From Diacronema lutheri (Eukaryota; Haptophyta; Pavlovophyceae; Pavlovales; Pavlovaceae): 64,000 nucleotides of DNA. Positions 2,637 through 34,549 of the stretch are shown piece by piece; position 1 is the stretch's first letter; the number at the start of each line of letters is the position of its first letter. Position numbers and translations under genes: made by a program. The notes beneath the pieces were generated by a model, which made no database searches, was not told the origin of the DNA, and worked only from the letters and a program-made list of their open reading frames with translations. The DNA is taken from the NCBI GenBank assembly GCA_019448385.1, contig JAGTXO010000013.1, positions 248,001 through 312,000 of the forward strand, given 5' to 3'.

Positions 2637-2752
2637 TACTAACGGCGCTTACGTCAGGACAGCGGGGTCAGCACCAGCTGCGGGGGAATCGAGTAGCCAC
2701 CAATGTCGTCGATCCCCGCGCATCCCGGTCACCAGCGAGCGGGCAGCGAGGC
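2637..2752 (+). repeat. Left terminal inverted repeat of the giant element
   Basis: Begins TACTAACGGCGCTTACGTCA and is the reverse complement of 34433-34548 with one visible difference (GATCCC here, GATTCC in the right copy). The same bases also form the start of the 1.36-kb element at 54010. Confidence 0.8.
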
Positions 2753-2898
2753 GGTGCGGGCCCAGAGGCCCGCCCGCGCCTAGCCGCCGCGCACCGCCGG
2801 CGCCCCCCGGCCGCGCGCGCCGCCGCACCCTCCGCAGCCGCGGCGCGCACCACAGCTAGCCGCGCCCGCGCCAGCAGAGGCCCGAGGGCCGACGGAAT

Positions 2899-3207
2899 TC
2901 ACCGCCGCCACCGAGCCGCGGCCAGCCCTGCCGCCGGACAGACCGCCGAGTGCGCCGCCGCCCGCACCACGCGCGCCGCCGCCCCGCACGCCTCCGCGCC
3001 GCCGGCCGCCGCCCCCGAGCGCGCCTCCGCCCGCCGCCAGCGAACCTGTCGGCCCGCCGGCAATCCGCCCACCATCGCTCAGCCTCCCGCCCACCGACGC
3101 GCGCACCGCGGCCTCCCCCGCCACAGCCCACCGACCCGCTTGCAAAGGCAGAGGCGGGAGCAGACAGAGCAGAGGGTTCCTGAAGCGCGAGACGGGGGAC
3201 AATTGAG
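2899..3207 (+). repeat. Direct repeat, copy 1 (309 bp, Pro-rich)
   Basis: Matches 3559-3867 at a constant offset of 660 bp with only a few differences; both copies end GGGGGACAATTGAG. A third copy is at 54272-54580 in the related element. It has no convincing coding sense. Confidence 0.8.
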
Positions 3208-3252
3208 GGCACCTCACGATGACGACGGCCTTACTTGGGAACACCAAAAACA

Positions 3253-3281
3253 GGTCCCACACGCGTAAAACGTGTGGGACC
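3253..3281. ncRNA. Conserved 11-bp hairpin near the Fanzor-side end; candidate guide-RNA scaffold part
   Basis: GGTCCCACACG (3253-3263) pairs perfectly with CGTGTGGGACC (3271-3281) around a 7-nt loop, CGTAAAA. The identical hairpin is at 54626-54654 in the non-autonomous relative. It lies between the Fanzor stop codon (4304) and the element terminus, where TnpB/Fanzor-type elements carry their guide RNA. The RNA role is inference; a simple structural repeat or terminator is equally possible. Confidence 0.25.
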
Positions 3282-3326
3282 CGCGGCGGCAGCCGGCATG
3301 GTCCCCCCATCTCGCGAACAAACGAG

Positions 3327-3558
3327 TGCGCATCGCGAGCGGGGATCTTGAAAGTCTTGTGGGAAGGCGCCGCCACCGGCACGCCCGTCCTAGTAATCGC
3401 CACCGTCGTCCTCGAAGACCGTGCCTGCGTCGTCCGAGTAGTAGCCACCGAGGGGCCGTTCGCCATCGTCCAGGCGGGCGGACGGCCGAGCCGCGTCGAC
3501 AGCTCGCACCGCCGCGTCGACGTGCGGGAACCAGCCTTCATCGCCAGCCCAGAGCATC
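3327..3558. other. Unique stretch between direct repeats; two opposing open frames, neither recognised
   Basis: This segment is absent from the 54-kb relative. On the minus strand an ATG at 3557 opens a 55-aa frame ending at 3390, acidic and aromatic, with GGYYSDDAG and VFEDDGGDY near its end. On the plus strand a frame with beta-like segments (VLVIATVVLEDRACVVRVV) continues into the Pro-rich repeat. I cannot decide which, if either, is real. Confidence 0.25.
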
Positions 3559-3867
3559 TCACCGCCGCCACCGAGCCGCCGCCAGCCCTGCCGCCGGACA
3601 GACCGCCGAGTGCGCCGCCGCCCGCACCACGCGCGCCGCCGCCCCGCACGCCTCCGCGCCGCCGGCCGCCGCCCCCGAGCGCGCCCCCGCCCGCCGCCAG
3701 CGAACCTGTCGGCCCGCCGGCAATCCGCCCACCATCGCTCAGCCTCCCGCCCACCGACGCGCGCACCGCGGCCTCCCCCGCCACAGCCCACCGACCCGCT
3801 TGCAAAGGCAGAGGCGGGAGCAGACAGAGCAGAGGGTTCCTGAAGCGCGAGACGGGGGACAATTGAG
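3559..3867 (+). repeat. Direct repeat, copy 2 (309 bp)
   Basis: Second copy of 2899-3207. It ends exactly where TTTA plus a TACTAACGGCG terminus begins (3868-3882), so an insertion or recombination junction lies here. Confidence 0.8.
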
Positions 3868-3871
3868 TTTA

Positions 3872-3898
3872 TACTAACGGCGCAATGTCGTCGACTCC
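3872..3898 (+). repeat. Internal TIR-like terminus with deletion
   Basis: TTTA at 3868-3871 is followed by TACTAACGGCG, then CAATGTCGTCGA. In the full TIR (2637-2714) these two blocks are separated by about 50 bp. This is either a deleted TIR copy or the true left end of an inner element into which 2637-3867 was added. Confidence 0.5.
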
Positions 3899-4303
3899 GT
3901 ATAGATGGTCAAGCCAAATCCGATCAGGGGCACGATCGCGCCCCGAGTGCAGCGCGGGCCGTTCGGAAGGACGTCCTTGTGAGGGAGCTCTTCGCGTTTG
4001 GCGAGCGGGGGAGCACGACGCGCAGCGTTGCTGCGGCGGCGTGCGGGCGGCGAGCAGCGGTCGGGCTGCTCGCGACGAGGCCGGAGCAGACGGCGCCGTG
4101 GCCGCCGGCGCAGGTGACGCGCGCCGACGAGCCGTAGCGAGCGTCCGTGATCCGCACGGCGGTTGGAGCGGGCCGGCTGGTGCGGCGCGCTCGGCCACGG
4201 GTGGCGGCGTGCACGGTCGTGCCGCGCGCGGCACGCGTCGCCAGCCGCGCGCGACCTGGGCAGAGCCCGCAAAGCGTCGACCGCTGCGCGGCTCGGCCGT
4301 GCG

Positions 4304-4490
4304 TCAACGCCGGCCGCGCTTCGGCCCGCGCGCGCTGCCGCCGCCGGCACTGGCGCTGGCAGCTCCGCGGGCGGGGGTGCGGGCGCGAGAGCCGCCGCCG
4401 CCACCGCCGCCGCGCCCGCCGCCGTCGTCGCCACCGCCGTCGCCGCCGCCGCCTCCCCCGCCGTCATCGTCGTCGTCGCCGCCGCCGCCT

Positions 4491-4523
<33 letters not shown>

Positions 4524-7150
4524 CCGCCGCCGTCGCCGCTGCCATCGTCGTCGTCGTCGTCGTCGCCCTCGTCGTCGCCCTCGTCGTCGCCGTCGCACTC
4601 GTCGTCGCAGTCGTCGCCCTCGCCGTGCACCATGCGCTCCTCACGCTCCCACACCTCGCCGCGCGCCCACCAGGCGAGCACGAGGGCAAAGCGCTCAGGC
4701 GTCGACGTGGTGTCGCGCCCGGCCGCGTGCGCCGCCATGTCGTGCACGTCGTAGAAGATGTTGCGCGCGGCGTTGTAGTCGCGGTGCACGGGCTTCTTGC
4801 CGCCGTTGCACGCCGGGCAGATGACGAGCGCGTGCACCGTGCGCGTGCCGCCCTTTGCCACGGGCAGGCGCGGGTTCTGCGCGAGCTCCGCGCCGCAGCG
4901 CTGCAGCCTGCCGCCCTTGGCGAGCCGCGGCATCGAGCAGTGCATCGACGTGTACGGCTCGGGCACGAAGACGGCCGCGACGCCGCGCCGCCGCAGCTCG
5001 CGCAGCAGCCCCACCTGGAAGGCGGGCGGCGCGCCCTTGGGCTGCGCGCCCTTGTGGTCGCGCAGCCACTTGCCCACGCACACGAGCAGCCGGTCGCGCG
5101 TCACGCCGTCGACACAGTGCGCCGCGATGAGCGCCTCGGCGACGCGCGCCGCGTTGGACCGCCCGCCGCTGTCGCGCCGCCAGCGCTCCTTCCGGCGCGC
5201 CGGCGCGTCGTACACGTGCTCGGCGGCGCGCTCGCGCACCCGCGCGCTCTCGCGGTGGAAGGCGATGTATTTGCCCGCGTCGAGCACCTTGGCGCTGTGC
5301 GCCTCGCCAAGCCGCGCCTCGTCCGCCTCCACGCTGAACTCCTCGCCGCGCCCGTCGGTGCGCACGCGCCGCCGCGCCGCGTTGGTCTTGGCCGTCTCGC
5401 GCGCAAAGCCCGCGGCGCGCGCGCGCGCGCGCTGCGTGAACTGCCGCCAGACGGCCGCCCGCCCGACGTGCGCAGAGTAGGTGGTGATGTTGCCCATGTT
5501 CGGGTCGGCCGCGACGACGACCGCCGCCTCGACGTCGATCGCCCGCCGCAGCTCGGAGCCGAGCGCGACGGCGATGCGCCCGTCCGGCCGGCGCCAGCGG
5601 TGCAGGACGCCCGAGCCGCCGGCCGGCGCCTGCGCCTTCGGCACGAGGACGGTCCCGACGGCGTGCACGGCGACGCCATCTGTCACCACCGACTTGACGG
5701 GCTGCCGGCCCGGGAGCGGCACGCGCGGCAGCGGCGCGAGGCCAACCCACGAGCGCCGCGCGTGCCACGGCAGATCGGCCGGCGGCCGCTCGCGCCCGGC
5801 GTAGTCGAAGACGCGGTTGGAGATGTCGAAGCGCGTCGCAAAGACCGCGTACCTGACGCGCACGTCCGACATCGGCGGGGTGTTGCCGTTTGTGCCTGTC
5901 CACTTGATCGGCTCGCCATCGTGGTCGCGCAGGTCCAGCGCCTTGAGCCGCGCGCGCAGCTCCTTGCGCTCGTCATCCGAAAGCGTCACCCAGATGGCGC
6001 TCGCGGCGAGGCGCACGTTGCGCGGCACCTGCGCGCAGCGCGCGGCGCGCGAGCGCGCGGGCGCGTGACCAACCTGGCCGCGGGGCGGCGCGCACGGCGG
6101 CGGCGCGCGCGCTTGGGCGCTCGGCGGCGGCAGCGGCAGCCACGCCTCGCGCGCACATTGTGCGTGCGCAGCGGCGCCACATTGTACCGCGGCGGCCGTC
6201 CGGTCAGCTGCGTGTGGATGTGCGCGAGCCGGCAGAGCAGCGCCTGCCCCTCGGCCACGTGCTGCAGGGTGCGGATCTGCACGAGGAAGTAGCGCGTCGT
6301 GTGCCGGTCGTAGTTCCACCTTTTCGTGGGCGTGCACTTGTAGTCGATCTTGTGGAGGACCATGTCGGGCAGGTGGCGGTCGAGCGCGGCGGGGCAGCCG
6401 ACGCGCGCGCCCTCCACGTCGCCGCGCAGCAGCCGCTCGCACAGCTCGCGCACGCGCGCGTTTCGCTGCATCTCGGGCAGCGCGACGAGCGCCTCGTCGC
6501 GCTCGACTGCCGCGCGGACGACGTCGCGGAGCAGCCCGTTCACGACGCGCGATGGATGCATCAGGCACGCGGTGGACACCTGCGTCGCCTCCGCCTCGAG
6601 GATCTCCGTGAGGCCCACCGCGCAGACGGGCTGGACGCCCTCGGCCATCTCGCCGACGGCGCGCGCCGTCGCCGCCTTGGTCTGCGCGGCGGCTTGCTCG
6701 GCGGGCTTGCCTCGGGGCGCTGCACCGTACGTGCTCTCGTCCTTGTGCCAGCCGATGGCCGAGAAGATCGCACGGACGGTTCCCTTGTCCATCGTGGTCG
6801 ACGTGTGCACGCTGGTCGACGGGCCGCCCGACGCCGCGCCGACGGCCTGCGCGCTCGCCACCGCAGCCTCGTCGCGCACCACCTTGTTGATGACGCGGTA
6901 CGCCTGTGTCGTGAGCCTGTGCACGGCCGCCGCGATGCGCCGCAGCTCCTTCCGCGCACCGGGCTGCGCCGTCACCGCCTGCGGCCCCGCGTTGAGCGTC
7001 GAGCGCTTGACCACGAAGCCCGGGAGCACGCTGACGCGCGTGCGCGCCGTCGCGCCGCCGGCGGCGCGCGCGCTCGGCGCAGCGGGCTCGTCCACGCGCG
7101 CGCGCTCGACGCCGCGCGCGCGGGGAACGCTCGGCGCGCGCGCGCCCGCG
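4304..7150 (-). CDS. Fanzor (TnpB-like RNA-guided DNA endonuclease) module
   Basis: C-terminal part of the giant gene, or a separate gene if an internal start is used. Exon pieces are up to 6157 and 6028-4304, joined phase 0 as YNVAPLRTHN|VPRNVRLAA, which restores the usual helical-to-beta transition before RuvC. RuvC-like acidic residues are visible: Asp in VVVAADPNMGNITTY (codon 5506-5504), Glu in VFVPEPYTSMHCS (near 4960), and Asp in VHRDYNAARNIF (4780-4778). Between motifs II and III a zinc ribbon is present: C-x13-C then CPAC. This DP-N, E--TS--C, RD-NAARN arrangement is the TnpB/Fanzor signature. The C-terminus carries an unusual Asp/Gly-rich tail of roughly 110 residues (about 4310-4640) ending in GPKRGRR, a possible nuclear signal. 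It lies at the element end nearest the candidate guide-RNA region. All three catalytic residues are intact. Confidence 0.8.
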
Positions 7151-10100
7151 GCGTCGCGCGCGCTCGCGGCGGCACCCGCCGCGGCGCGCTTGCCCGCGGC
7201 GCCCGACTCGCCGTGCGCGCGAAGCGGCGCCGACGCCAATGCCGACGCCGCGCCCGCGCCGCCGCTGCCGCTGCCCGATACGCCCGCGCGCCGCTTCTGC
7301 TCGTCGCGCGTCTTGCGGAACTGGGCGACGAGGTCGCTGCTCACGTTGGCCTCAGGCTCCCACGTGTCGGCGCTCTCGTCGTAGCCCCGCCACCTGATCC
7401 GGAACTGGAACGTCACCTTCTTGCCCGCCTTGCGGCGCTCGTCGACGACCGCCTCGACCTCGTACGTGCGCGCCTCCTCGTCGACGCTCGCGCCCGCCGC
7501 GCTCGCGCCCGTGTCCGGCCACCCAGCGACCGTGCCGCCCAGCCTCTCGGCGGCCGCGCGCAGCTGCCGCTCGCGCTGGGCGGCCGCGGCGCCTCGCGCG
7601 ACCAGCGCGGGCAGCATGCCCGCGCCGCCCGCGAGGCCGTGCGCGCCGACGCTGGCGGTCATCAGCGCGTCGAGGCACGCGAACGTTGCGAGCGCACGCG
7701 CGCCATCGTCGCCGCCGCGCGGCTGCGAGCGCACGACGGGCGATGGCCGCGGCTCCCCCTCGGCCGCGAGCAGCGGCCAGATCGCACTGGCCAGCGCGAC
7801 GGCATGCGCGCCGACCGCGACGGCCACGTCCGCGTCGAGCGGCGCAAAGTCGTAGCGCACGAGCGCGGCCGGGCGCGAGTCGTCCGTCGGCCGGTCGGCG
7901 ACGAGCAGCCCGACCGGGCGCGGCGGCTCGCCGGACGGCGCGGCGACGGGCACGCAGAGGAGCACGACGAGCAGGCGCGGCGTGCCGCCGAGCAGCGCGC
8001 GCGCGGCATCCGCCCCGTCGGCTCCGCCGCGCGCGGCCGCGGCGAGCAGCTCGGCCGCGCGCGTCGGGCCCAGCGCCGTGCGCGCGTCCTTGCGCGCGCG
8101 TGCGCGGGCCGTGTACGCGGCGCAGGCGTCGTCGAGCACCGCCGCGCTGGGCGCGGTGCCAGTCGTCGCCCACGCGCGCAGCGCGTCGCGCACCCGCGTG
8201 ACGATCGCCTGGTCGACCGCCGCCTCGCCGGCAGCGTGCGCCGGCGCGCACGCCGGCGGTGCGGCGGCAGGCGCGAGCGCGGGCGCGCCGTCGGCGCCGT
8301 CAACGCCGACGGCGCCGTCGGCGCGCCGCCACGCGAGCTTCGCCTCGATCTGCTGCCGGACGGCGTGGCAGTGCCGGTCGATGCCGCGCGCGTCGTCGAG
8401 CGCGGCCAGCGCGTCCTCAGCGGCGGGACGGCCGCTCGCGTCCGCGACGGCCTGCAGGCAGAGCAGCGCGGCCGCACGCGCGTTGCACGCGCTCTGCGGC
8501 TCGGGCGCGAGCGCGAGCTCGAGCTCGAGCGGCGACGCGCCTCGCGCCGCGGCGATCGCGTCCATCAGCACGTCCAACCGCTGCACCAGCGCCCTGTGCG
8601 CGTCGCGCGGCGCGCCCGTCGACGGCGCGCGCGAGCGCGTCGCCACGAGCCCGAGCGCGCGCGCCGGCGCGCCCGCCGGCGTGTGCAGCACGAGCAGCGC
8701 CGCGCCCGCCAAGCTCGCGTTGCGCGTGACGAGCGCGAAGATGCGCGTCGCCTCGTGCGCGCCCACCGACGCCCAGATCGCAGCGCGATCGGCGTCCGTC
8801 TGCGCGTCGCACAGGTCGCGCACGTCGTCCGGCGCGAGCAGCGCGCCGCCGCCGGCGGAGCGCGCGACGATCGCCCGCGCCTCCGCCACGAAGACGGCCT
8901 GCGGCAGGTCGGCGTGGCGCGCGTCGACGATGGCGCGCGTCGCGTGCACGCCGAGCTCCACGCCGCGGTAGAAGGCGCGCGCGTTGGCCGCGCGCGCGTG
9001 CGCCGGCCGTCCGTCCGCGTTGCGCCTCGCGCGCGCCTGCTTGCTCGTGCGCGCGAGGCCGTCGCGTGGCGGTGGCGGCAGCGTGGCGAGGAAGCGCGCG
9101 GCGGGCGGCGGCGCGCGCACGCCGCGCTGCCGCCGTGCGATGGCCGCGAGCCGCCGGCCCGCCGCGCTGCCGCCCGCGCCGACGTGCTGCCGGCGGCCGA
9201 GCGCCGCCGGTGGCGGCGGCGGCGGCGGCGCGGCGGCGGGCGGCGGCGCGACGGCGGGCGGCGGCGCGGCGGCGGGCGGCGGCGCGGCGGTGGGCGGCGG
9301 CGCGGCGGCGGGCGGCGGCGCGGCGGCGGGCGGCAGCGGCGGCGGCGCGGCGGCGACGGCAGCACCAGTCGGCTTGTCCGCCCACGCACCCGAGACTCTG
9401 TCCCAGACCTTGCCCCATGGCGCGCGCCCACGCGGCCGCGCGAACTGCCCCGGCTCGAGCGCCTGGCCGCGCTTGGCGGCGGCGGCGGCGGCAGGGGGCG
9501 GGCGGCCGGCGCGCCAGTCGAAGACAGGTGCAACCGTGGCGGCAGGCGCCGAGTGCCGCGCGTCGGTCACAGAGCGCGTGGTGCGCGCGGCGACCGTGGC
9601 ACGCCTGGCGGGCGGGCGGTGAGCAGCGCCCGCCGGCGCGCCGGCGGGCGCGGCCGCCTCGAGCCCGGCGGAGGCGCCGCGCTTGCGCTTGCGCGTGCCG
9701 CCGCGCGTGCGCCTGCGCGCGCGCCCGCCGCGCGCCCGTTCGGCCTGCGCGTCGCCAGCCGCGTCGCCGGCCGCGTCGCCGCGCCGCACGTAGACGACCG
9801 CGAACGCCTCCTCGCCGGTCCCGTCGACGCCGCCGCGCGCGCGGCGCAGGACCGACCGCCACTGCAGCCGCCGCGCGCGGCCGGGCTCGCACGCAAACCA
9901 GCGCCCACCGCGCCTGACGACGGCCACAAAGTCGTCGTCGCGCCGCCCGCGCCGGCGCGTGCGCAGCAGCACGCACTGCACGTCGAGCCAGCCCTCGTGC
10001 CAGTCGGCCGTGCTGGGGGCGACGCGAATCGACTGCGGGAGCTCGACGCCAAAGCCGGCGAGGCGCACGATGTGCGCGACGATGACGCTCGAAATGGCGG

Positions 10101-13100
10101 GGGCGCTCGACGGGTCGCCCGCTGCAGCGAGCACCGCCCCGCCCCAGTGCTCACGCGTGACGCAATCCGCGTCCTCGACGTGCACGTGCGCCACGCTCGC
10201 GCCGAGCTGGTGCAGCAACGCGCAGATGTCGGCGTCGACCGTCCTCTCCTCCTCGGCCGCCTCGGCCGTGCCGCGGGCGGCGGCGTCGCCTGCCGGCTGC
10301 CCGAGGTACGCGATCGCCCGCTCGACGGCCGCGCGCTCCGCACGCGCTGCGCTGTCGATCGCCGCATTGCCGACGGGCGCGCGCAGCGCCGCGATCGCGT
10401 CTTGCAACGCCGTCGCGTCGCCCGTCGCCGCCGCCGCCGTCACCGCCGCCGCGCTCGCGGTGCCGTGCGCGACGGCGTGCAGCGCGGCGGCGCGCGCGGC
10501 GGGGATGCGCCCGTCCAGCGCGAGCACGAGCGGCGGCCCGGCCGGCGTCTGCTGCCGCCGGTGCCGCCGGCTCGCAGCCGGGTGGTCGGCGCGCGCGCGC
10601 TCGAGCCGCGCGCGCCGCTCGACGACGCGCGCCCAGAAGGCCTGCACCCTCGGCTGCGCGAATGCAAGCCAGCCGGCGCCGCGCGTCACGACGTGCACGA
10701 CGATCCGGTCCTCGTGCCTGAGGTACTGCACGTAGAGCGCTTTGCTCACGCCGAGGACGTGCATGCCGAGCTGCAGCTGATCGCGGTGCGGCTGCGGCGG
10801 CCCGTCCTCGTGCGCCGTGGCGCCCGCCTTGGTGAGCGTCTTCACCTCGACGAGGACCTGCTCGTTGTTTTCGGGGAGGATGGCGAGCCCGTCCGGCGAG
10901 AAGGCGAACGGCGCGCTCTTGTCGTGCGGGTCCGCACGCACCATCGGCAGGTTGCACACGACGGTGATGCCGTACGCGGCCGCCAGCTTGCGCAGCGCGA
11001 CGGCCTCGCCGAGGATGCCCGCGGTCGTCGCCTTGGTCCGCACCTCGCGCCGCCGCCGGTGCACGTACTCGTCGGTGAGCGTCTCGTGCGCGACGCCGGC
11101 GTTGTCGTTCACGACGTCGCCAACCTTGCTGCCCGTGACCTCCTCCCATCGCTCGTCGTGCCAGCGCGGGCTGCGCTGCGCGGGCGCGCCCGCGCCGACG
11201 GCGTCGAGCACGCGGCGCAGCGCTGTGCCGTCGGGCGCAGCAGGCACGCGCGCGCGGTCCTGGGCCTCGCGAGCGTCGAGGACGCGGCCCGTAGTGGAAT
11301 CTTGGGGTAGGTCGAGCTTGCTCGCCTCGCCGTAGCGGCTCTCCAGCTGGCGCGGTGCGTCGGCAGGGCCGCCGTCCGTGCGCGCACCCGACGCGCCCGC
11401 CAGTGCACGCGGCGCAGCGTCCGAGGCGCCCGCCGCGCCCGCGCCGCCGCCAATCGCGCCAGCGCACGCGCGCGCCGCGACCTGCGGACGGCCAGCCGCA
11501 GGGACCTCGTCCGCTCGGCCGGCCGCTGCGTCGGCCGTCCGCTTGGCCACCTCGCGCACGTCTCCGAGCGCGAGCGTGGCTGGCGCCGTCGAGCTCCCGT
11601 GGTCTTTGTCCCAAAATTTGAGCAGCCCGCCAAGGAAGGGCGTGCCCGTCGGGCGGTCCTCGGGCACCTCCGCCAGGATCGCGTCGACGCGCAGCGCGGC
11701 CGCCACATCGCAAAACGCGCGCGCGGCGCGCGCCATCCGCTCGGCGCGCGCGCCGCCGTCGTCCGCCGCGCGGCGGATGGCGTGGCTCACGTGCGCGACG
11801 CGGAGCGAGACGACGGCGTGCGCCGGCGCGTCGGCGCCCGTGCCGAGCGTGTGCCGCCGGATGGCCAGCTGCCCATCGCCCATGCGCGGCGGCAGCGACG
11901 CGCACGCCGCGACGGTCGTCGTGCCGGCCGCGCTGTCGCACAGCCAGCTCGCCTCGCCGCCGCCCGCAAACTCAAAGGTCGCGAAGCCCTCGCGGCCGAA
12001 AAGCGCGACGAAGTGGTCGAGCACCGCCTTGTTGATCGCGCGCGCCGCCGGCCGCGTCGATGCGCCGCGGGCAGCGCCACCCGCCGCGCCGCGCGCATCG
12101 CTGCACGTCGCAGGGCAGGTGCAGCCGGACGCGCGCACGCCGTCCGACCGCGTCCGCGGCAGCTCGAGCTCGCGCACCTTGGGGCAGAACCAGAGCGGGT
12201 TGGACGCCTCGAGGCACAGCACGACGAGCCGCCCGTCCGTGCCGGCCAGCGCGCGCGCGTCGCGCAGCAGCTCGACGGCGAGCTCGGACGTCGCCGCGTG
12301 CACCGCCGGCTCGCCCGTCGCGCGGTCGGGCGGGAAGAGGCCACCGCCGACGAGCGGGCTGGGGCAGCGGCCGAGCATCACGAGCAGCGGCGGCGGCGGC
12401 GTCTGCGGCGCCTGCTGCCCGACCGCAGCCGCCGTCAGCCCGGCCAGGTCGGAGCTCGTGCGGAGGGCCTTGAGCGCGACGCGCGAGCCGGTGCCCGCCT
12501 GCTCGGAAAACGTGGCGAGCATGGCGCACGTGCTCGCCCTCGCGCCGCACTGCCAGCTGACGCGCGCGAGGAGGCCTTCCAGCGTGTCGTTTTCGCGCGG
12601 CCGCGTGACCGCGTCGAGCGCCGCCGGGCCGAGCTGGAGGCTGCCGGGCGTGACGCACAGCACCGCCTCGTGGTAGGCGCGCAGCAGCTCCCTCGGCAGC
12701 TGCTCGGCGGGCGTCGCCGCCTGCCCGCCCACCCACCGTGCACCGTGGCCGCCGTCGCCCGCGCCCGCGAGCCGCACCGCCGGCCCGCCCGTGATCGCCG
12801 AGGTCGGCGGCGTGCCGAGCGCGTCGACGAGCGCGCGCACGGGCGCGACACGCCTGCGCGCAGCGTCCGCGCCGACGGCGAGCGCGGCGATCTGAGCGCC
12901 CTCCCATGCGCGCTCCCTCGCGTCGTCCCGCGCGGCCGCCGGCGCGGCGCCCGGCCGCGCGCCGGGCGGCACCGCGCACGCCGCCGCGACGACCTCCGCG
13001 CGCGCGCCGGCGGCGTCGGGCGCGTGCAGCTGCGCGATCGCGCCAAAGAGCGCGGCGGCCGAGCGGTAGCGGCCGTGCGCCGCGACGAGCGCGTAGAGCA

Positions 13101-14872: not shown

Positions 14873-14949
<77 letters not shown>

Positions 14950-23713: not shown

Positions 23714-23735
23714 CCCCCCCCCCCCCCCCCCCCCC
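23714..23735 (+). repeat. Poly-C tract (22 nt)
   Basis: Uninterrupted C run preceded by a CCA-repeat. Confidence 0.9.

Positions 23736-25103: not shown

Positions 25104-25144
<41 letters not shown>
25104..25144 (+). repeat. Poly-C tract (41 nt)
   Basis: Longest homopolymer in the window; exact length is likely uncertain in the assembly. Confidence 0.9.
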
Positions 25145-25145
<1 letters not shown>

Positions 25146-25547: not shown

Positions 25548-25585
25548 CCCCCCCCCCCCCCCCCCCCTCCCCCCCCCCCCCCCCC
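25548..25585 (+). repeat. Interrupted poly-C tract
   Basis: C runs of 20 and 17 separated by a single T. Confidence 0.9.
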
Positions 25586-25659
25586 GGCAGGCGGCCATCG
25601 AGCCGCATTAGCACACCCGCCCGGGGCCTCCCGCCGCACCCGCAGCGGCTCGGCGCCTT

Positions 25660-25870
25660 GAATCCTCCCGTCCCCCGGGGTGAGGCCTTCAACCCGGGCC
25701 CAGCGCGCTCCGACTGCCTCACGCGCGCCAGCGCCAACCTCGGCGGCATGGTAGACCCCGAGCGAAAAGCCGCACTTCTCGCCGTCCTCCTTAGGCGCAA
25801 GTACGTTATCCTGCTCCTACTGCCGACGCGGCTCCCGCGCGCGCGGACTACTACGCCGGGCAGATCGCCG
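25660..25870 (+). pseudogene. Possible LINE endonuclease start, truncated
   Basis: The frame reads GEAFNPGPARSDCLTRASAN, then LGGMVDPERKAALLAVLLRR and KYVILLL. The FNPGP followed by SAN-GG---PE-K--LL--L------LL pattern resembles the beginning of apurinic-type endonucleases of non-LTR retrotransposons. It breaks off within about 60 residues without the later catalytic motifs. Weak call. Confidence 0.3.
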
Positions 25871-26138
25871 CAGACGCACGTGAGTGCACACGTGCGGACA
25901 AGGCGCACACGCTCGACGTCCAGTTAGCGCACGTGCACGTGCGCGCCACTGGTCACATTTGAGCGTCCGTGCTCGCCCACAGCGTCGCCATCCACAAGAT
26001 GCGCGCTGGAGCCATCCAAGCAGGGCTCTGCCTGCTCGGCTTCCGCAAGGCAATTTGGGCCGCGGACAGCGGACAGCGGACGGCGTGCGCGTGCGAGGTG
26101 CGAAAGGAGGAAGAAGGTAGGGAGAGTTGTGTGTGTGT

Positions 26139-26139
26139 G

Positions 26140-26168
<29 letters not shown>
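26139..26168 (+). repeat. Poly-G tract (30 nt) after (GT)n
   Basis: GTGTGTGT followed by 30 G; within or just beyond the C-terminal exon of the USP gene on the minus strand. Confidence 0.9.
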
Positions 26169-26169
<1 letters not shown>

Positions 26170-26173
<4 letters not shown>

Positions 26174-27600
26174 CGGCCGCCGGAGACGAGGACGCACTCA
26201 CCGCTGTTGGCAATGCGCGCGTCACGGAGACAACTTGGCGGGCCTCGCACGCAGCTGGGCCGATCGCCGCCGTAGAGATGTCTGCAGCCGTCTCCGCGAT
26301 GCCGATCGTCGCATCTGTTGGCACCGCTGCCATCTGCCGCACCCGCGGCCAGGCTGCCGGCAAGGTCGGCGCGTCGGGCTCCGAGCTCGGCCACGCAGGC
26401 GATGCGGCCGACGGCGGTGACGCTGAGCCCAGCGCCGGGTCCAACGGCTCCACGTCGAGCCGGCTGTGAACGAGCATGCTCGCACCACTTGCCCACGCCA
26501 GCGCGTCGGACTCAGGCACGTTGTAGATCTGCGCGGGCAACGCGCGTGCGTGCGGCAGGCGCGCGCGCGAGCTTTCAGGCCACGCGCGCGTGCCGCGCGG
26601 GAGGACGGGGCGGTCGCGGCTGCGCTCGACCGCCGGTCGCGGCACCGAGCGACCGTGCGCGCCGCCGCACGTTGTAGTCGTCGCACGGAAACCAAGCCTC
26701 GTTGCGGAGCACGATGGCGACAAGGTGCCCGCTCATCGGCCCCTCGCCCACGTGCACCACGCCGGCGACGGGGAGGTGGTCGCGCCCGCCGAGCAGCAGC
26801 CGCGGCGCGCACACGAGCGCGCGGTTGTTCTTGCACTGCGAGCCATTGCCGCGCGTCGTGCGCGGCGCCTCGACAGCAATGCTGGCTGGCGTGAGCACGC
26901 CCGAGTGGCCCGCGTTCGTGTGGCGATCCCGCGGCGGCCCAGCGGCGCCCCCCAGAGCGTGTGCAAGCGCGCGCGCCGCATCGCCGCCGACGCTGACGAG
27001 TACGGCGATGCCCTCGCCGGCCTCTGAAGGCACGGCGATCTGCTCGAGCACTGGCCCGACGCGTGTGTCGGCTTCAAAGGCCGCAGCGAGCCCGGGCACT
27101 CGGCCGAGCAGCAACCGGAAGAACTCAGCGGCATCCTGCGGCGTCCTTCGCGCGCCACGGCCCGAGATGACGTCGATGACGGACACAAGACACAGCCGTG
27201 TCGGCGCCCTGGTGTCCTCGATCAGCGTGCCAAAGTCCCGAAAACGCGCCCTCTCGACGCTGTTGGCACGGCGCGAAGCGGAGCGAAGCATCGCACGGAG
27301 CATGTTCAGGGCGAAGAGCGATTGCATAAGGACGGTCGTGTAGCACGCGCTGCCCTCGTTTTTCGCGCCTGCGCCGCGCCGCGCAGCGCCGGGTGTGCGG
27401 GGTGCGCACGCACGGTTTGCGGCGGGATGGAGGGAGGCTGGCTGGGCGCGCGCCGAGCCCGGCAAGCCGTGCAGGCGCTCACCACGCGGCACGCCGGGCA
27501 CTCTCACCGGCCACATCGGGCCGTCAAACGCGTCTTCCACAGGCTGCCGACCGACGACGTAAAACTTGCTCAAGGCGCCGCGCCGTGCACGCGCCATGCG
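26170..27600 (-). CDS. Ubiquitin-specific protease (USP/C19) inside the giant element
   Basis: Cys box NEGSACYTTVLMQSLF (near 27350, catalytic Cys), QDAAEFFRLLLGRVPG (the QD-EF helix) and His box MSGHLVAIVLRNEAWFPCDD (near 26720) are all present. This is the order of C19 ubiquitin hydrolases, which release ubiquitin from proteins. An intron at 26670-26529 (GTGCGG...CGCAG, phase 0) joins DDYN to IYNVPESDALAWASGASMLV, restoring the strand that ends a USP fold. An upstream exon near 27597-27520 (SKFYVVGRQPVEDAFDG) is likely, but its donor and phase are unclear, as is the exact C-terminus in or after the poly-G tract. The protein is shorter than many USPs, about 330-450 aa. Its position in the element suggests cargo acting on host ubiquitin signalling. 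Confidence 0.65.
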
Positions 27601-27609
27601 CGCGCTGTT

Positions 27610-28890
27610 GCGGGCTGCGCAGCAGGGACGACGGGGGAATTGGCGAGCGAGGGTTGGGCGCAGATCAGCGTGGTGGCGCGGCAAGACGAGCGCGCGCCGG
27701 GCGCCTGGCGCGGAGGCGCCCCGCGCGAGGACGCGAGCCGCTTCTCGCACCGGACGGGCGCCCACGCGCAAGCCGGCTTTCGAGGGCTGGTGGATGGTGG
27801 CAGATGCCGAAACGGACACATGGAATGATGCGTCGGCGGCGCGAGCGCGGGACGATCTTGCCCGGGCAATTTTGCGCACGCTGCCAGCGCGCGTATGCGT
27901 GCGCATGCAGCGGGCGGCGCGCACGTTGCGCGTGACGGGGCGCCGAGCGGCACACCGGCGGGGACGCGCTCGCCGCTGCCGTGGCATCGTACGCTGCCTG
28001 CGTGCTGGCCCGCACGCACGTTGCCGGCGCGAGGGGACGGCGAGTGCGCCTCGGCCGAACAGGCGCGAACGTTACGCCCGAGCGCGTGGCCGGGCCCCGC
28101 CGACTGCACGCAGCGCCGGCCCAGGCGCGCATCCGCCCGACGCGGATTTGGACGACGCATCGACCGGCACGCCGAGCGTCTGCGCCCGCCTCGCGGCCGG
28201 TCGCGCCGGCCCCTCTTCGGCCCGAGGCCGCACGTCCGCCGCGCGCCGCTTTGGCGCGCGGCGCGGCGCTCCCGGAACGCGCATGGCACACGCGCGGTGC
28301 GCGGGCACGCCCGCAACGCGCCATTCCAGCGCGAGCAGTTCGGCAAGCTTGCAGCGCGCGAGCAGCCGGGCATGTGCCGCGGAAACACAGTTCGCTGTGT
28401 GCGCCGGCCGCGACGACACGGCGTAGCGGCGCGAGGCTGGCCGCCGGGGCCACGGGCGTACTGCCGTGGCGCGACGCCATGGTATGAGCATTAAATTCAT
28501 CGGGGGGTGGGGTGGGGGGGGGGGGGGGCGCGTTGTGCGCACTTGGCGCGCGAGTAGTGCGAGTGGCGGGCGAGCCTCGTCGCCCACGGAGCCCGCCCCC
28601 GGCTCGGCGGCGCGCCGCCTGCTCGCCGGGTCGCGCACCGCCGTCGCCGCCGCTGCGCACTTGCCCAGCTTGCCGGCAGGCGGCAGGCGGCGGCGACGGC
28701 GGCGGCGGCGGCTGCGGCGCGAGCGCGACGCCGGGCGGCGGCAGCGCCGACGGCACGCGCGCAGCGGCGACCCACGCGGCGGCGGGCAGCGCGCCAGCGT
28801 GAGGCCCCTGCGCGCCGGCCGCATTGGAGCCGCCCTGCGCGCCCTAGAAGGGCGCGCAGGTACGCGGGCCGGTCGCGCGGCGCGCGGTGC
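27610..28890. other. Stretch without a recognised gene
   Basis: Between the USP 5' side and the PIF1 3' end. Open frames are Arg/Ala-rich in every register. It includes a G-rich run at 28501-28528 and Pro/Ala-type low complexity. I see no family motif. Confidence 0.4.
28513..28528 (+). repeat. G-rich homopolymer run
   Basis: Near-continuous G run inside a longer G-rich stretch beginning at 28502. Confidence 0.8.
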
Positions 28891-28949
28891 TGGCGAGCAC
28901 CCGACGGCTGCGCGTCGGCGCGAGCGGCGCGGCGGGCGTCGCGCCGGCG

Positions 28950-31491
28950 GGTGCTGGCCAGCACCGCGCGCCGGCGGCGCGCCCGCCGCCAGCGCGCCGC
29001 CCGCCGCCGGCGCCGCGCGCGCCGTCCGCGCCCGCCGCCACCGCGCGCCGCCGCCGCGCATTCGCGCGCGGCGGCGACGGCGGCCGCGGCGAGCGCCGCC
29101 GCCGCCGCCTCGCCACCGCTGACCGCGCGGAGCACCTCTTTGAAGACGACGCTGCGCGTCACGAGGTCCGGGCCGAGCGCAAAGCGGACGCGCGACGTGT
29201 GCCCGACGCGCGAAGCGGCCACGTGGAGCTGGCCGTGCGTGAAGCACGGCTCGGCGAGCCACACGCCCGCGCACCCGAGCGCTTGCCCCTGCGCCTCGTT
29301 ACGCCGGCCGCACCGGGGAACTGGCGGCGCATCCGCACAAGCGCGAACGTGCCGTCGTCGGGCGAGTGGTGGTCGACACGCGCGACGAGCACGGTGCTGT
29401 CGCGCCCGGCGGCCGCGCCGGGGCGTGCGCACTCGAGCAGCCGGCCGCCGGCGCGCATGCCGCGCACGATCAGCCGCGTGCCGCCGCACAGCCCCTCGCC
29501 GGGCGAGAGGTTGCGCGGCAGCATCACCACCATCCCGGGCTTCAGGTCGAGGACGCGGTGCGGCATCTGCGCGTGCTCGAGCGAGTCGAGGAATTCGACC
29601 GACGCCAGCGCAATCTGCTTGCCCGCCCCGTCGTCGCGCCAGCTCGTCCGCCGACGCGCACCTCGCCGCCGCGCCCGGGAAGCGGCCGATCGCCAGCCAG
29701 TTGATCCGCGCCACGTCCGTCTGCTTGGCGCAGAGCACCGCGCGGTCGCACAGCGAGCCGTCGTCGGTCCAACACGTCGCGCCGTGGACAAAGTCGTCAC
29801 GAGCTCCGTCGGGTAGGCCGAGCCCACGCGGATGGGGACGCCGCCGACGGCCTCGGGCAGCTGCACGGGATCGAGCGGGAATGCGCCGGGCATGGCCCCG
29901 GCCGCCGGCACCGCCGCGGGAACGGCGCCGTCGCCGGGGCTGCGCAGCAGCTCCGCCCACTCGCCCGCGCCGAGCGCGTCGCCCGTGTCGCGCGCCGCGC
30001 TCGAGGCGCGAACGTTCTCGACCAAGGCGTGCTGCCGATCGTGCTGCCACGGCGCCGAGTACTTGAGGCAGGAGCGCACGATCTGCGCGCGCGAGCCGCG
30101 CCGCACCACCGGCAAGCACTGGCGAAAGTCGCCGGCGAGCAGCAGCGTCTCGCCGCCGAAGCGCTCGTCGACGCCCGTCACGTCGCGCAAACACCGATCA
30201 GGCGAGTCGAGGTGGCACCGCGTCTGCATCGGCGCCTCGTCCCACACGACCAGCCGCCGCGGCGGCCAGGGAGCGCCCGCGCTCGGAGCGCGGCACGCCA
30301 TTGAACGGCTTGCCCGTCGGAGTCGGCACCGCCGGGCACCTTGAAGGTCAAGTGGAAGGTGCGGCCGTCGGGCAGCAGCGTGGCGGCGACGCCCGAGGAC
30401 GCGCCCACGACGACCGCGTGCCCATCCGCGCGCACGGCGGCGATAATGGCGCGCTCGACGAACGTCTTGCCCGTTCCGCCCGGCGCGTCGCAAAGATGCA
30501 GCCGGTTGCCCACGCCGCGCAGCGCCGATTTGACGACCGCGCCGTGGAGCGCGCACTGCTGGCCGCCCTCGGCCATCGCCGCGCGCGCCGCCGCCGCGCT
30601 CGCAGCCCGCTCGGCGCGATGGTAGCCCTGCGCGCGCGCGAGCTCGCGCCCGCCCGGCCCGGCCGGCGCGCGCGCCGTGCGCAGACCGGCCACCGCCGCG
30701 AGCGCCGCCGCGCGCTCGCGCTCGTCGGGCACGTACAGCCCCGTGGAGTCGAACGTGTCGGCCCAGGCGGGCACGCCGTACGAGGCGAAGGCGTCCGAGC
30801 CGGGCTGCGGCCGCTGCTCGGCGCGCTTCAGGAGCATGACCCCGCACACGTTCCACTTGGTGCCAAACATCGAGCCCGTGAGCCCCGTGTAGACGCGGTC
30901 GAGCTGCGTGGCGATGGCGCAGACGTCCTCGTGCCGGATCTCGTCGACCGGTTCGCGCCGCGCGTCGACGAGCGGCACGACGCGCTCGGAGCCCGCCCAC
31001 GTGAACGTGCGCGTCGACATGTTCAGCCGCGTGTGCGCGAGCGTGTCGTCCTCGTACTTGGGCTTGACGGCGGGCGAGAGCTTGCCGCGCACCTCCTCCT
31101 TCGAGAGGCCGCGCGTGTTGAGCAGCTCCTTCTGGCGCGCGTGCACCGTCTCGACGCGCTGATCGTCGATGGCGCGCAGGGCGCCAAAGTAGGCGTCCAT
31201 CTGCGCGAGCGGCGCGCCTTCAATCGGCAGCTCCTTGTCGGTCACGCCGGCCGTGTACGCCGCCTTGTCGACGTCCGTCGGCCCGTACATGGTGCCAAAG
31301 TTGCCGTCGCCCGTGAGCTCGGGCCAGTCGACGACGCAGGGCGGCGAGACGAAGGCGAGCGCGCGGCGCGACGGCCCGTAGCTCAGCTTGTCGACCGTGC
31401 GCGCCTGCTCGCTCGGCTTGACCGGCCGCGTGCTCACGATCTCGCAGTTGACGAGCGCCGCGTCGAAGGCGCGCAGGTCGATGGCGGCCAT
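28950..31491 (-). pseudogene. ssDNA-binding-like domain fused to PIF1-type helicase, frameshifted
   Basis: ATG at 31491 (MAAIDLRAFDAALVNCEIVS). The first about 240 residues (YGPSRRALAFVSPP, GNFGTMYGPTDVDK, MFGTKWNVCGVMLLK) resemble viral or transposon ssDNA-binding proteins only loosely. They continue in frame into a PIF1 helicase: Walker A DAPGGTGKTFVERAI, then GASSGVAATLLPDGRTFHLT. Later motifs sit in other frames: VVWDEAPMQ (DEAP box) and LLLAGDFRQCLPVV in a second frame, AKQTDVARINWLAIG in a third, VMLPRNLSPGEGLCGGTRL back in the second, and NEAQGQALG with HGQLHVAASRVG in the third. The switches at about 30260, 29800, 29650 and 29300 leave no room for introns at some points. So this is either a decaying gene or repeated indel errors in the assembly. 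The motif order is complete for a Helitron/PIF1-like superfamily 1 helicase. Confidence 0.65.
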
Positions 31492-31966
31492 GGTCGTTGT
31501 GCGCGGGAGATCACGCTGCAGGCGGCTCCACAGTAGGTTCGAGAAAAAAAAAAGCTGGGCCAACGGTCAGTCGAGCGCCACAAGCAATCCTCGGGAGCCG
31601 GTGGCCCAACCCAACCCAACGATCTTCGTCGCCACCCTTCGCGCGTTTTCCGTTCGCGCCCAAGCAGACAATGAGACCACAATCTCGGTGCTGCTCGGCG
31701 CGATGATGGGCCTCAGCGGCTCGGTGGCGATCGTGCTCTACGTGCGCGCGCGACGTCGCGAGGTGCAGCACGGGCGCGTGGCGACGCCGCGCATCATCCA
31801 GCGCCAGCTCGAGCTGCAGCTGCCGTGGGGCCGGCCGGACGAGGCATCCGTCGCCTCGCGTGCCGAAACGCCGGGCGTCGAGGCCGCGTCGCGCTCGGTG
31901 CGCGACGCGGCGCCCGAGCCGGACCCGGACGAGGGCTACGTGCGCGTGGCGAGCGCGGCGTTCTGA
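31490..31966 (+). CDS. Small single-pass membrane protein, unknown
   Basis: Frame ends at TGA 31966. A hydrophobic helix TTISVLLGAMMGLSGSVAIV precedes a basic stretch (RARRREVQHGR), then an acidic C-terminus (EPDPDEGYVRVASAAF). In-frame ATGs lie at 31490, overlapping the helicase start on the other strand, and at 31703, which would cut the helix, so the true 5' end is unsure. No family recognised. If real, it is divergently transcribed from the helicase gene inside the element. Confidence 0.35.
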   Translation: MVVVRGRSRCRRLHSRFEKKKSWANGQSSATSNPREPVAQPNPTIFVATLRAFSVRAQADNETTISVLLGAMMGLSGSVAIVLYVRARRREVQHGRVATPRIIQRQLELQLPWGRPDEASVASRAETPGVEAASRSVRDAAPEPDPDEGYVRVASAAF

Positions 31967-32065
31967 GGCGCGCACGACGTCGCCCAGCCAGAGCAGCCCG
32001 GGGCGGGGCGAGTCCGGCTGCGCGGAGGTCCGGCTCGAGCGGGCGGGCGCCATGCTCTGAGGCGC

Positions 32066-32379
32066 CGCCGCTTTCTAAAAGGGTGTAGGGTGTAGGGTGT
32101 AGGATGCAAAACAAGCCCTCCCCACATCTGGGCCCGACGTCATTCCTTCTTTCGTCACAGCGTCATTCCTTCACTCCCTGTAGGACTTTCGTAACCGTAC
32201 TTATCCTACACCCTACACTATGCAAATACTTAGAGAATAGATACATCCTACACTAAGTAAAGGTACTCGTATGTGAGTAACGTCACGGCTTCGAAGAAGG
32301 AATGACGTCGGGCCCAAATGTGGGGAGGGCTTGTTTTGCATCCTACACCCTACACCCTACACCCTTTTAGAAAGCGGCG
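32066..32379. mobile_element. 314-bp palindromic MITE with telomere-like GGGTGTA repeats
   Basis: Arms 32066-32151 and 32294-32379 are 86-bp inverted repeats with one mismatch. Each contains three GGGTGTA units after CTTTCTAAAA. The central 142 bp is AT-rich (TATGCAAATACTTAGAG) and strikingly unlike the surrounding GC-rich DNA. No coding capacity and no clear target duplication seen. Nested within the giant element. Confidence 0.8.
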
Positions 32380-32794
32380 CCGAAGGTGGGAGGATGCCAC
32401 CCGTATGCGCGCGTTTGAACGTGCGCGGACGGCCGTTGGCTTCGCGCCCTTTCGCCCACGGTCTGCGCGCCAACGGACCAGTCCTCCGCGGGCGCCGCGC
32501 ATCGTCTCAGGGGCGGTCGGTGTGGTACGCCGCGCGCATCGTCAGCGCCGCGGCGTCGAGCTCGGCGAGCGAGGGCGCGTACGTGACGCCGCTCAGCACC
32601 TCGTCCGCGCCCGCCCTCGTCGCGCTCGCCGCCTCCGCAGTGCGCGCAGGCGGCTTCGTGACGGCACGCGAGGCCACGCCGCGCGCCGCAGGTGCCTTCG
32701 CGCGCTGCATCGTCTGTCTGCCGGTCCGACGCGCTCTGCTCTGAACGAACGGACGGCACGCCCGACGAGATCTCGTCGCGTGCACGCTCGCACA

Positions 32795-33629
32795 GCATGT
32801 ACCCCCAGAACGTCTCCGAGCTGCTGCCCGACGAGATCTTCGGCGACGAGCTGCTCGTCGACCGGCACTACCGCGTGCGCATCCTTCAGCGCGTCGCCCG
32901 CCGCCGCGATGCGGCCGAGGCCAACTTTTGGCTCGACGGCGGGCCCGCCGACTCGGTCGTCGGCGCGTGCATGTGCGGCCGAATCTACGCGCTCAAGTGC
33001 ATGGGCCGGCTCGTCCGCGGCGCCCGGATCCTCGCGCTGCTGCGCAAAAATGTGGCGCTCGCCACGTGCCGCGCACACCTCATGGGCCACATGCTCCAGC
33101 GCATCGTCGGCGACAGCGGCGTCGCGCGGCTGCTGCAGCTGGTTGCAGCTCGTTCGCGAGGATCACGACACGCTCAACGCCGAGCACCAGGCCTTGGAAG
33201 CACAGCATGACACCGGCCAAGTCATGCGACGGCATGTGCGCGCGCGCCGACGCGCTCTCCAAGGACCTCGCACGGGCGCACGAGCACGCTCACAAGCTCG
33301 ATGGCTATCTGGTGTGGTGCAGCGAGCGCCTCGGTGAGAGTGACTCTTTCAACGGAGCGCTCGAGAACCTGAACACGCGGTGCAGCATGAGATGTGCTGG
33401 CTCCACGCCGAGATGTCGTCGCTCGTTGCGAGTTCGCCCGAGGCTTACGCGAACGACAGCGAGGCCACCGACTTCAAGGACCACGGCGTGTGCGTCGAGT
33501 TCGATGTCTTCAACCGCGACGGGGTCGAGGGCGCGCCCGTGCCCGCGACCGCGCCCACGAAGGCAGAGCCGGGCATCGAGTCCGAGTGCATCGCGCCCGC
33601 ACAGGCAGAGCCGGGCAGCGAGTCCGAAG

Positions 33630-33662
<33 letters not shown>

Positions 33663-33690
33663 GGCAGAGCCGCGCACCGAGCCCAAGTGA
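32795..33690 (+). pseudogene. Frameshifted coiled-coil protein, unknown
   Basis: MYPQNVSELLPDEIFGDELL followed by VDRHYRVRILQRV, then CGRIYALKCMGRLVRGARI, in one frame. Near 33140 a 10-bp tandem duplication (GCAGCTGGTT/GCAGCTCGTT) shifts the frame to REDHDTLNAEHQALEAQHDT. Two more frame changes lead to ARADALSKDLARAHEHAHKL and MCWLHAEMSSLVASSPEAYA, then acidic, Pro-rich repeats with AEPG-ESE units. The helical, heptad-like pieces line up across the frames, so this was probably one coding sequence. Function unknown. Confidence 0.4.
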
Positions 33691-33699
33691 GCCAACGTG

Positions 33700-34380
33700 C
33701 CGCCGAACTCGCCCAAGCTCTCGTCGGTCGACAGTCAGGCCACCGAGTACAAGACCTCCTACGCGAACTCACGTGCTCGCCACCTGCAACGCCTCGAGTT
33801 TACGCACGCGTTCGAGTCTGTGCAGGCCGAGGTCGCTTAGCCAAAGCGCGCCAAGGTTCCGGCCACCGGCGCATCCAGCCGCTGGCTGCGCAACACGGCG
33901 GTGCGCAACACCCGCAGCTCGGCCAACGGCAAGTAGCGCGCCGGCGCAGCGCACGGTATGCCGCGGCGAGCTCAGTCGCGAAGAGTGTCCGACTGGCCGC
34001 GCCCTCCACGGGGTGCACGCGCACTCGGCGCGGTCCGGTCAGTCAGGGGGCCTCAGCTTGCGCGATGCCAGTTGCGAGCCCCCCCGGAATCCGCCATTCT
34101 ATTCTACTAGGCGTAAATCACCCAAGCCCTTCCGGTCGCCCGCATTCCGGGGTCGGACCCTCCGTCGGCCCGGCTCGGGCCCTCCGTCCGCCGCGCCCGC
34201 TCGACCCCGAATTCTACTCCAAATCGGCCGGTCAGGAGGGTGTCTCGGTCCTAGGCTCGTCATAAGCCTCGCCCCGACCCCTCGAGCGCTCATTGGCTGG
34301 CTTTTAACCCTTGATTGTACGACCCGGGTCGTACTCTCAGCCTTACACTGGCCGGACCAGCCCGGACCGCGCCCTATATA
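33700..34380. other. Non-coding stretch before the right end
   Basis: Frames are short and interrupted; base composition drops toward AT near 34300-34390. Nothing recognised. Confidence 0.4.
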
Positions 34381-34382
34381 GA

Positions 34383-34392
34383 TTATTACGTA
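34383..34392 (+). repeat. 10-bp direct repeat TTATTACGTA, left copy
   Basis: Same 10 bases recur at 34550-34559, flanking a 157-bp block that holds two outward TIR termini (ending 34422 and 34548). It may be a target duplication of a small inserted element at the right end. Confidence 0.5.
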
Positions 34393-34393
34393 G

Positions 34394-34422
34394 CCGCTGT
34401 CCTGACGTAAGCGCCGTCAGTA
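34394..34422 (-). repeat. Extra TIR terminus (29 bp) near the right end
   Basis: GCTGTCCTGACGTAAGCGCC then GTCAGTA is the inverted TIR end with one change (CAGTA for TAGTA), followed by TTTA at 34423-34426. It marks a second possible right boundary. Confidence 0.6.
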
Positions 34423-34432
34423 TTTATTTCGG

Positions 34433-34548
34433 GCCTCGCTGCCCGCTCGCTGGTGACCGGGATGCGCGGGAATCGACGACATTGGTGGCTACTCGATTCC
34501 CCCGCAGCTGGTGCTGACCCCGCTGTCCTGACGTAAGCGCCGTTAGTA
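34433..34548 (-). repeat. Right terminal inverted repeat of the giant element
   Basis: Reverse complement of 2637-2752 with one difference; ends GCGCCGTTAGTA, then TTTA. Confidence 0.8.
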
Positions 34549-34549
34549 T

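Follow-up and report, generated by a model that had tools for sequence, protein, structure and literature searches.

Helitrons have ends of the form TC...CTRR and insert between A and T; Helentrons insert between T and T. The guide RNAs of TnpB and of its homologue, Fanzor, are placed at the end of the gene, where it reads out to the end of the element. As far as the available part of Bao and Jurka (2013; PMC3627910) goes, Fanzor occurs in several transposon types and also in unclassified elements, a few kb long, that have no terminal inverted repeats (TIRs). In contrast, the element described here is 31 kb long and its Fanzor lies behind a chromodomain in what is apparently a single ~18-kb gene. 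It comes from a stretch of 64,000 nucleotides of the haptophyte Diacronema lutheri (contig JAGTXO010000013.1; the whole stretch is referred to as the window), in which positions 3899-34381 are one of ~200 copies of a giant mobile element nested in unrelated TIR elements. No paper on this element was recognised by title. In their main texts, PMC10711439 does not contain the words haptophyte, Diacronema, lutheri, Pavlova, chromodomain or helicase, and the genome paper on D. lutheri NIVA-4/92 (PMC8379373) contains no word beginning with 'transpos'. The latter reports 43,502,671 bp in 103 contigs (the longest 3.042 Mb; GC 73.25%) and 22.9% repeats, most of those annotated being long terminal repeat (LTR) elements and long interspersed nuclear elements (LINEs).

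3899..34381: the window's copy of the giant mobile element (30,483 bp), with GTATAGATGGTCAAGCC at its left end and GGACCGCGCCCTATATAG at its right; the last G may belong to the target

The giant element begins GTATAGATGG and finishes CCSTATATA(G), and its other copies define these ends. Read outward, left ends start (G)TATAGATGGTCAAGCC and right ends finish GGACCGCGCC(C/G)TATATA, with unrelated flanks beyond. In the 43,492,796 bases searched (103 contigs, the longest of 3,042,068 bases) the exact end patterns occur 202 times on the left and 197 times on the right; backward controls occur 0 times. G precedes the left end in 194 of the 202 and follows TATATA in 169 of the 197. A 28-mer situated 8 bases inward from the left terminus has 207 genomic occurrences against the 202 left ends, so a few ends are clipped or mutated. 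The sequence at 3900-4440 is matched at 100% over its whole length at 40 scored places (379 candidates), and left flanks of other copies diverge upstream of 3899. The sequence at 33860-34400 is matched at ~100% identity, also at 40 scored places (288 candidates), and 39 of these, all but the window's own, stop at query positions 521-528, which correspond to 34380-34387. In all 11 of the other right ends that were read, similarity to the window breaks off no more than a few bases from 34381.

An earlier note on this DNA had proposed a 32-kb TIR transposon with its ends at 2637 and 34548 and a TTTA target duplication. The inverted arms and the flanking TTTA are as the note described them: 2636-2752 and 34433-34549 are complementary over 117 nt at 99%, which is beyond chance, and TTTA stands just outside both (2633-2636 and 34549-34552). 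The arms are nevertheless not the ends of the giant element, for none of the 11 other right ends has an arm at that place, and the TTTA belongs to TIR elements around it. The sequence reads as a nest: the giant element (3899-34381) lies in a tiny TIR element (3872-3898 and 34382-34422), and the tiny one lies in a larger one, MITE1, each with TTTA on both sides.

2637..3867: left part of the enclosing element MITE1; TIR of 116 bp at 2637-2752, outer TTTA at 2633-2636
3868..3898: left remnant, with TTTA, of the second, very small TIR element, beginning TACTAACGGCGC; the direct host of the giant element, as read from the sequence
34382..34426: what is left of the small TIR element on the right, with its TTTA (34423-34426); 30-bp TIR match at 34394-34423
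34427..34548: right end of MITE1; TIR at 34433-34548, outer TTTA at 34549-34552

The MITE1 TIR is a family of its own, distinct from the giant element. A 124-bp query from the left arm has at least 45 matches in the genome, the window's own included (the best 40 of 287 candidates were scored), and the 20 loci that were fetched show a sharp outer end, in most cases TACTAACGG, next to unrelated flanks that are AT-rich there. The same TIR occurs a third time in the window, at 54008-54125, facing a shorter partner at 55297-55362, and 691 bp starting at 2636 recur at 54009-54699 with one difference. This 1.36-kb element (54001-55362) is a compact facing pair without the giant element, as is a pair 600 bp apart at another locus (L027). 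Compactness is not universal: 17 of the 20 fetched loci (L011-L030) have no second TIR match within 8-9 kb inward. That observation favours a single 32-kb transposon, as do the equal flanks of the arms and two loci (L024 and L030) at which an end of the giant element lies 175 and 852 bp from a TIR. Set against these are the compact pairs, the other copies of the giant element that end at 34381 and 3899 without a TIR, and the finding, by eye, that among the 45 TIR matches listed a facing pair ~32 kb apart occurs only here. The 32-kb transposon has thereby become very improbable. Within the 54001-55362 element, CAGATAGAATACC is found at ~54707, where the match to the left-arm region stops, which suggests a further nested insertion.

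What survives of the earlier proposal is a giant, multi-copy mobile element with DNA-processing genes, whose other copies, which the note had asked for, are represented among the 202 left and 197 right ends. Pairing of the ends listed on contigs C1-C43 (91 left, 98 right) gives 56 pairs; one pair of 57.6 kb was left out, two left ends on C4 having shared one right end. The spacing is 30.9-31.1 kb in 23 pairs, 21.0-21.7 kb in 12, 26-27 kb in 7, 29.0-29.5 kb in 7 and otherwise in the remaining 7, so that the modal full length is ~31.05 kb (the window's copy is ~570 bp shorter), with further size classes of 21.5, 26 and 29 kb. The 35 left and 42 right ends on these contigs that stay unpaired include some whose contigs end inside the element. 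The 56 pairs total 1.56 Mb; extrapolated to ~200 copies averaging 27.8 kb, the family would occupy ~5.6 Mb, or 13% of the assembly. A 541-bp query (20114-20654) finds 40 scored full matches, in full-length copies among others and, among these best-scored matches, never inside 21.5-kb copies, which suggests that the latter share an internal deletion. Over 2 kb at one end, identity to the window is 99.5-99.95% in 10 of 11 other right ends and 7 of 7 other left ends that were read; the eleventh right end (L042) is 97% identical over 1.6 kb, and older copies at 95-97% are present. A codon-position test on decayed copies gained nothing. In some older copies (L021, L024) a spot that in the window holds an inverted pair of 89-bp arms (32063-32382) is rearranged. 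Eight contig ends (C1, C5, C6, C8, C10, C12, C14 and C32) lie within 2 nt of a left terminus of the giant element, and one (the start of C32) at a right terminus among the matches listed; contigs entering the element from its left flank stop at scattered internal points. The contig ends at the left terminus may be natural DNA ends or an effect of the assembler. Telomere capping as their cause found no support: TTAGGG arrays mark other contig ends (in the first 100 of 212 matches).

One copy, on contig C27 (L067/L068), lies within a repeat of the host, and its flanks of 157 and 146 bp match an intact copy of that repeat at 96.8% and 98.6%. All 10 intact copies read CAGGGCAGAG-ATTCA(A/G)T-GTCAGCGAGCC (ATTCAGT in one, ATTCAAT in the rest), and the filled one reads CAGGGCAGAG, then GTATAG...TATATA, then GTCAGCGAGCC. 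Relative to the empty copies, therefore, this insertion lost 7 bp of target, made no duplication and entered a target without TATA. The comparison also assigns the leading G to the element, and a second copy (C4c) agrees: it has CAAC/GTATAG at the point where most copies of its left-flank repeat, in part of the matches, continue CAAC/ATCAGG. As judged from this one empty site, the inserted segment of the family is GTATAG...TATATA, with boundaries that differ from those of the earlier note, an outcome that the note itself had named as counting against its proposal. No duplication beyond the constant terminal bases was seen by eye in 14 end pairs. That the giant element targets or duplicates TATA was considered and rejected, since TATA is absent from all 10 empty copies and 7 bp are missing from the filled site. 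A search for an empty site for the window's own copy returned 0 matches. TIR-element arrangements resembling the flanks of two copies on C4 were rejected as empty sites, their common origin being doubtful in view of the 119-157 bp gaps and the divergence of the TIR copies. The host repeat itself (L016, ~1731-2040) is multi-copy and coding-looking, with 10 intact copies and one that carries the giant element.

The element's own ends, GTATAGATGG and CTATATAGGG, agree by eye in 7 of 10 bases. Comparison of 1.5 kb from each end gave no inverted match that was convincing; there is no long direct repeat joining the two ends and no LTR, and a short direct repeat, TATAG, is found at both. Subterminal hairpins were entertained as a sign of rolling-circle transposition and dropped, because stems of at least 8 bp are present in 36% of interior 200-bp windows too.

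The outer flanks differ between the two sides. Counting distinct loci from the search for ends of the giant element, with the window's copy and the TIR-selected loci excluded, a TACTAAC-type element terminus lies within 7 bp in 6 of 19 right flanks (five found by script, L060 by eye) and in 0 of 18 left flanks. The six are L032, L034, L035, L040, L060 and L062; in L034, L035 and L062 a G replaces the usual T before ACTAA. The skew could come from TIR elements landing in TATATA, or from the giant element landing at breaks at TIR ends.

The coding content of the giant element lies mainly on one strand:

4307..23212, minus strand: giant gene spread over three frames: ~23.1-19.5 kb, an open frame of 4,509 codons from 19515 to 5989, and ~6.0-4.3 kb
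10609..11187, minus strand: YqaJ/RecE/lambda-type exonuclease domain, from profile matches
7312..7464, minus strand: chromodomain (E 4.7e-13), absent from the earlier note's list; upstream of Fanzor in the same open frame
4307..7029, minus strand: Fanzor (TnpB homologue), the C-terminal part of the giant gene; TNB domain at 4757-4996
26578..28071, minus strand: open frame with a USP/UCH-like domain (27103-27369, E 4.3e-8); coding signal at ~26.6-27.3 kb
29000..30558, minus strand: PIF1 helicase, split over three reading frames by introns or frameshifts; domains at 30322-30558 and 29915-30361, 2B at 29462-29596
30754..31491, minus strand: domain of 246 amino acids resembling single-stranded-DNA-binding (SSB) proteins, N-terminal to PIF1 in the same open frame
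32662..33560, plus strand: candidate for a small spliced gene close to the right end, with three frames showing coding signal; no Pfam match

The claim that all genes lie on one strand holds for the main ones and fails for the plus-strand coding signal at ~31.5-31.9 and 32.7-33.6 kb, which may mark small genes. The frames of the giant gene were followed with a coding score trained on the exonuclease segment, which is itself inside the giant gene, on the SSB/PIF1 stretch and on the glycosyltransferase of the host. The expected minus-strand frame (-1 to 19.5 kb, -0 to 6.2 kb and -1 to 4.5 kb) is the best of six in 61 of 62 300-bp windows over 4501-23100, the best score being negative in 6 of the 62; part of the first ~1,100 codons of the 4,509-codon frame scores weakly. 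On this coding signal, the three frames are apparently one ~18-kb gene with two introns.

The exonuclease that the earlier note had named is upheld by profile (PHROG 434, E 4.8e-17), with lesser scores from TIGR03033 (6e-7, below cut-off) and from Pfam YqaJ (8.9e-4; 20 bits, below the cut-off of 22). Profiles likewise bear out its PIF1 (E 1.8e-24 and 3.7e-14), USP and Fanzor between the arms. Fanzor has its TNB domain by profile (PF07282, E 1.8e-6, 28.5 bits against a cut-off of 26.3) and its RuvC residues, like its N-terminal limit, placed by eye; a TnpB model matches weakly (E 0.024, below cut-off). Reading outward, Fanzor stops 408 bp short of the left end, a position that fits the guide-RNA architecture referred to above. 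The Ulp1-like domains of the earlier note found no profile match: there are candidate Cys-protease motifs and stretches resembling degenerate Ulp1-type, Josephin-type or endonuclease/phosphatase folds, all by eye and without profile support. The proposed single-stranded-DNA-binding protein stands in part. Speaking for it, the domain has 21 relatives in a collection of 5.8 billion proteins, predicted as separate proteins of 171-310 amino acids (a family of 22 sequences with the window's own), and its model is a strand-rich fold (predicted local distance difference test, pLDDT, 84; predicted template modelling score, pTM, 0.80); on the other side, it has no Pfam or PDB profile match. From the look of the sequence and the company of its gene we infer that it binds single-stranded DNA. 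In IMG/VR and in GTDB genomes, the scans made confirmed no relative. A search with residues 1200-4400 of the giant protein gave no homologues, PDB sequence matches for pieces of the element were of no use, and Rfam and tRNA searches found nothing.

No match was found to any of the transposon classes tested, and the description 'giant element of unrecognised class' survives. The profile scans covered the long open frames and selected pieces of the element rather than every short frame. In those stretches no transposase, integrase or Rep was recognised, in agreement with the earlier note, which had seen no known transposase family. Neither terminal inverted repeats nor a target duplication, the marks of a TIR/DDE transposon, are found at the element's own ends, and no reverse transcriptase profile, such as an LTR or non-LTR retroelement would carry, matched in the scanned stretches. 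Polintons/Mavericks are likewise large and rich in DNA-processing genes. The giant element differs from them in having no recognised polymerase B, integrase or packaging ATPase (Pfam gave no match to a protein-primed polymerase B or a retroviral-type integrase in what was scanned), and in that its own termini have neither a long TIR nor a 6-bp duplication.

A set of PIF1, SSB-like protein and Fanzor recalls the gene content of Helitrons. The giant element might accordingly be a very divergent relative of Helitrons/Helentrons, moving by rolling circle with a Rep nuclease that escaped recognition. It shares with that group the PIF1, the SSB-like protein, Fanzor as cargo and the lack of target duplication at the empty site, and the available part of PMC3627910 treats Fanzor1 with many mentions of Helitrons. 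The differences are these: PIF1 is joined to an SSB-like domain rather than to Rep; an HUH Rep joined to a helicase gave no Pfam match on pieces of the open frames and no two-tyrosine motif in a motif scan; the ends are not TC...CTRR; the tested target, at one empty site, is not between A and T and lost bases; and the subterminal stems are ordinary. We regard this alternative as unlikely.

SSB proteins, RecE-type exonucleases and PIF1 also occur in large DNA viruses, and the element could be an integrated virus-like genome or satellite, mobilised in trans. One relative of the SSB-like domain (P0018) points that way with a weak match to DUF5871 (E 0.0046, below cut-off). In the other direction, nothing in the scanned stretches was recognised as a capsid, packaging ATPase or polymerase; scans of IMG/VR with pieces of the element confirmed no relative; and ~200 copies, near-identical where read, are transposon-like. 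A viral origin accordingly seems improbable, even more so than a rolling-circle one.

The absence of target duplication, the lost target bases, the fixed ends and the set of SSB-like protein, RecE-type exonuclease and PIF1 together argue for a DNA copy that is replicated and then captured in a manner resembling end joining. We consider such a mode of spread about evenly balanced between right and wrong. The element would spread by copying; the SSB-like/PIF1 protein and the RecE-type exonuclease would carry out the replication and processing of a DNA copy whose ends are fixed, and this copy would be joined into chromosome breaks, with a few target bases perhaps going in the process. The chromodomain-Fanzor tail of the giant protein may bring RNA-guided cutting to chromatin, for example breaking empty sites and so favouring copying, and the protease-like parts may cut the giant protein or strip ubiquitin-like tags of the host. 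Several points weigh against this scheme. No DNA polymerase was recognised in the scanned stretches; the 408 nt between Fanzor and the left end fold hardly better than shuffled sequence (z -1.18), and a second folding test bearing on a guide RNA gave z -1.29; no domain is assigned to the greater part of the giant protein; a single empty site bears on integration; extrachromosomal DNA, expression and Fanzor activity are proposals made from sequence; and ~200 fixed ends, with the leading G in 194 of 202, point to an enzyme that specifically recognises the ends more than to simple end joining.

A hidden enzyme of that kind is the main rival. It would be a site-recognising recombinase (tyrosine or serine, as in Cryptons, Starships and IS607) residing in the unassigned portion of the giant protein and inserting a circular form, with TATAG as the core. 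The ends fit: they are fixed, they have no TIR longer than a few bases and both have TATAG, which together with the size also likens the element to Starships (in size) and Cryptons. So much of the protein is unassigned that a recombinase may hide there, and the base after the right-hand G, which is A in 13 of 24 fetched flanks, could be a target preference. However, no integrase profile matched in the scanned stretches, and for a tyrosine recombinase there was no profile or convincing motif in this mostly unassigned protein. The tested target, from which TATA is absent, was shortened by 7 bp, unlike the outcome of conservative recombination at a matched core. The element also differs from Starships and Cryptons in its haptophyte host and in being a single element with ~200 copies. 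We think a recombinase doubtful, while giving it more credence than a Helitron or a virus.

Replicative spread with capture by end joining can be carried further, to a new class of giant eukaryotic element without a transposase, in which a phage-like replication set is combined with end joining at breaks and a chromodomain-tethered Fanzor, as the tail of a giant protein, biases repair; it would have filled about a tenth of an algal genome. This whole is put forward tentatively and stands, in our estimation, on a level with the recombinase. The novelty of the class rests on failing the known classes tested, and an unrecognised recombinase would lessen it. The ~200 copies of 31 kb, near-identical where read, signify a very recent and massive spread of an element that the profiles used do not name. 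With it come a Fanzor that is naturally present in many copies and linked to a chromodomain, and an opportunity to ask how large DNA moves when no integrase is recognised. Since the copies are many, with fixed ends and in several size classes, and there is at least one empty site, the mechanism can be tested within a single alga.

The surroundings of the nested elements remain to be described. On the right they adjoin a host glycosyltransferase at 34616-37210, minus strand (GT4/GT1 domains, E 7.1e-17). To their left, at 1575-2530, is a second TIR family with 129-bp arms (TACTAACGACGCTTACAGG) and termini related to the 116-bp TIR; part of it recurs at 51788-51991. A long open frame at 51962-54040, minus strand, with a YDDVYAV-like motif is by eye a reverse transcriptase, with no Pfam match at E 0.01; it is interrupted at 54009 by the TIR element found there. 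Also to the right of the giant element, 41961-43635 and 59533-61204 form a direct duplication of ~1.7 kb with 90-99% identity.

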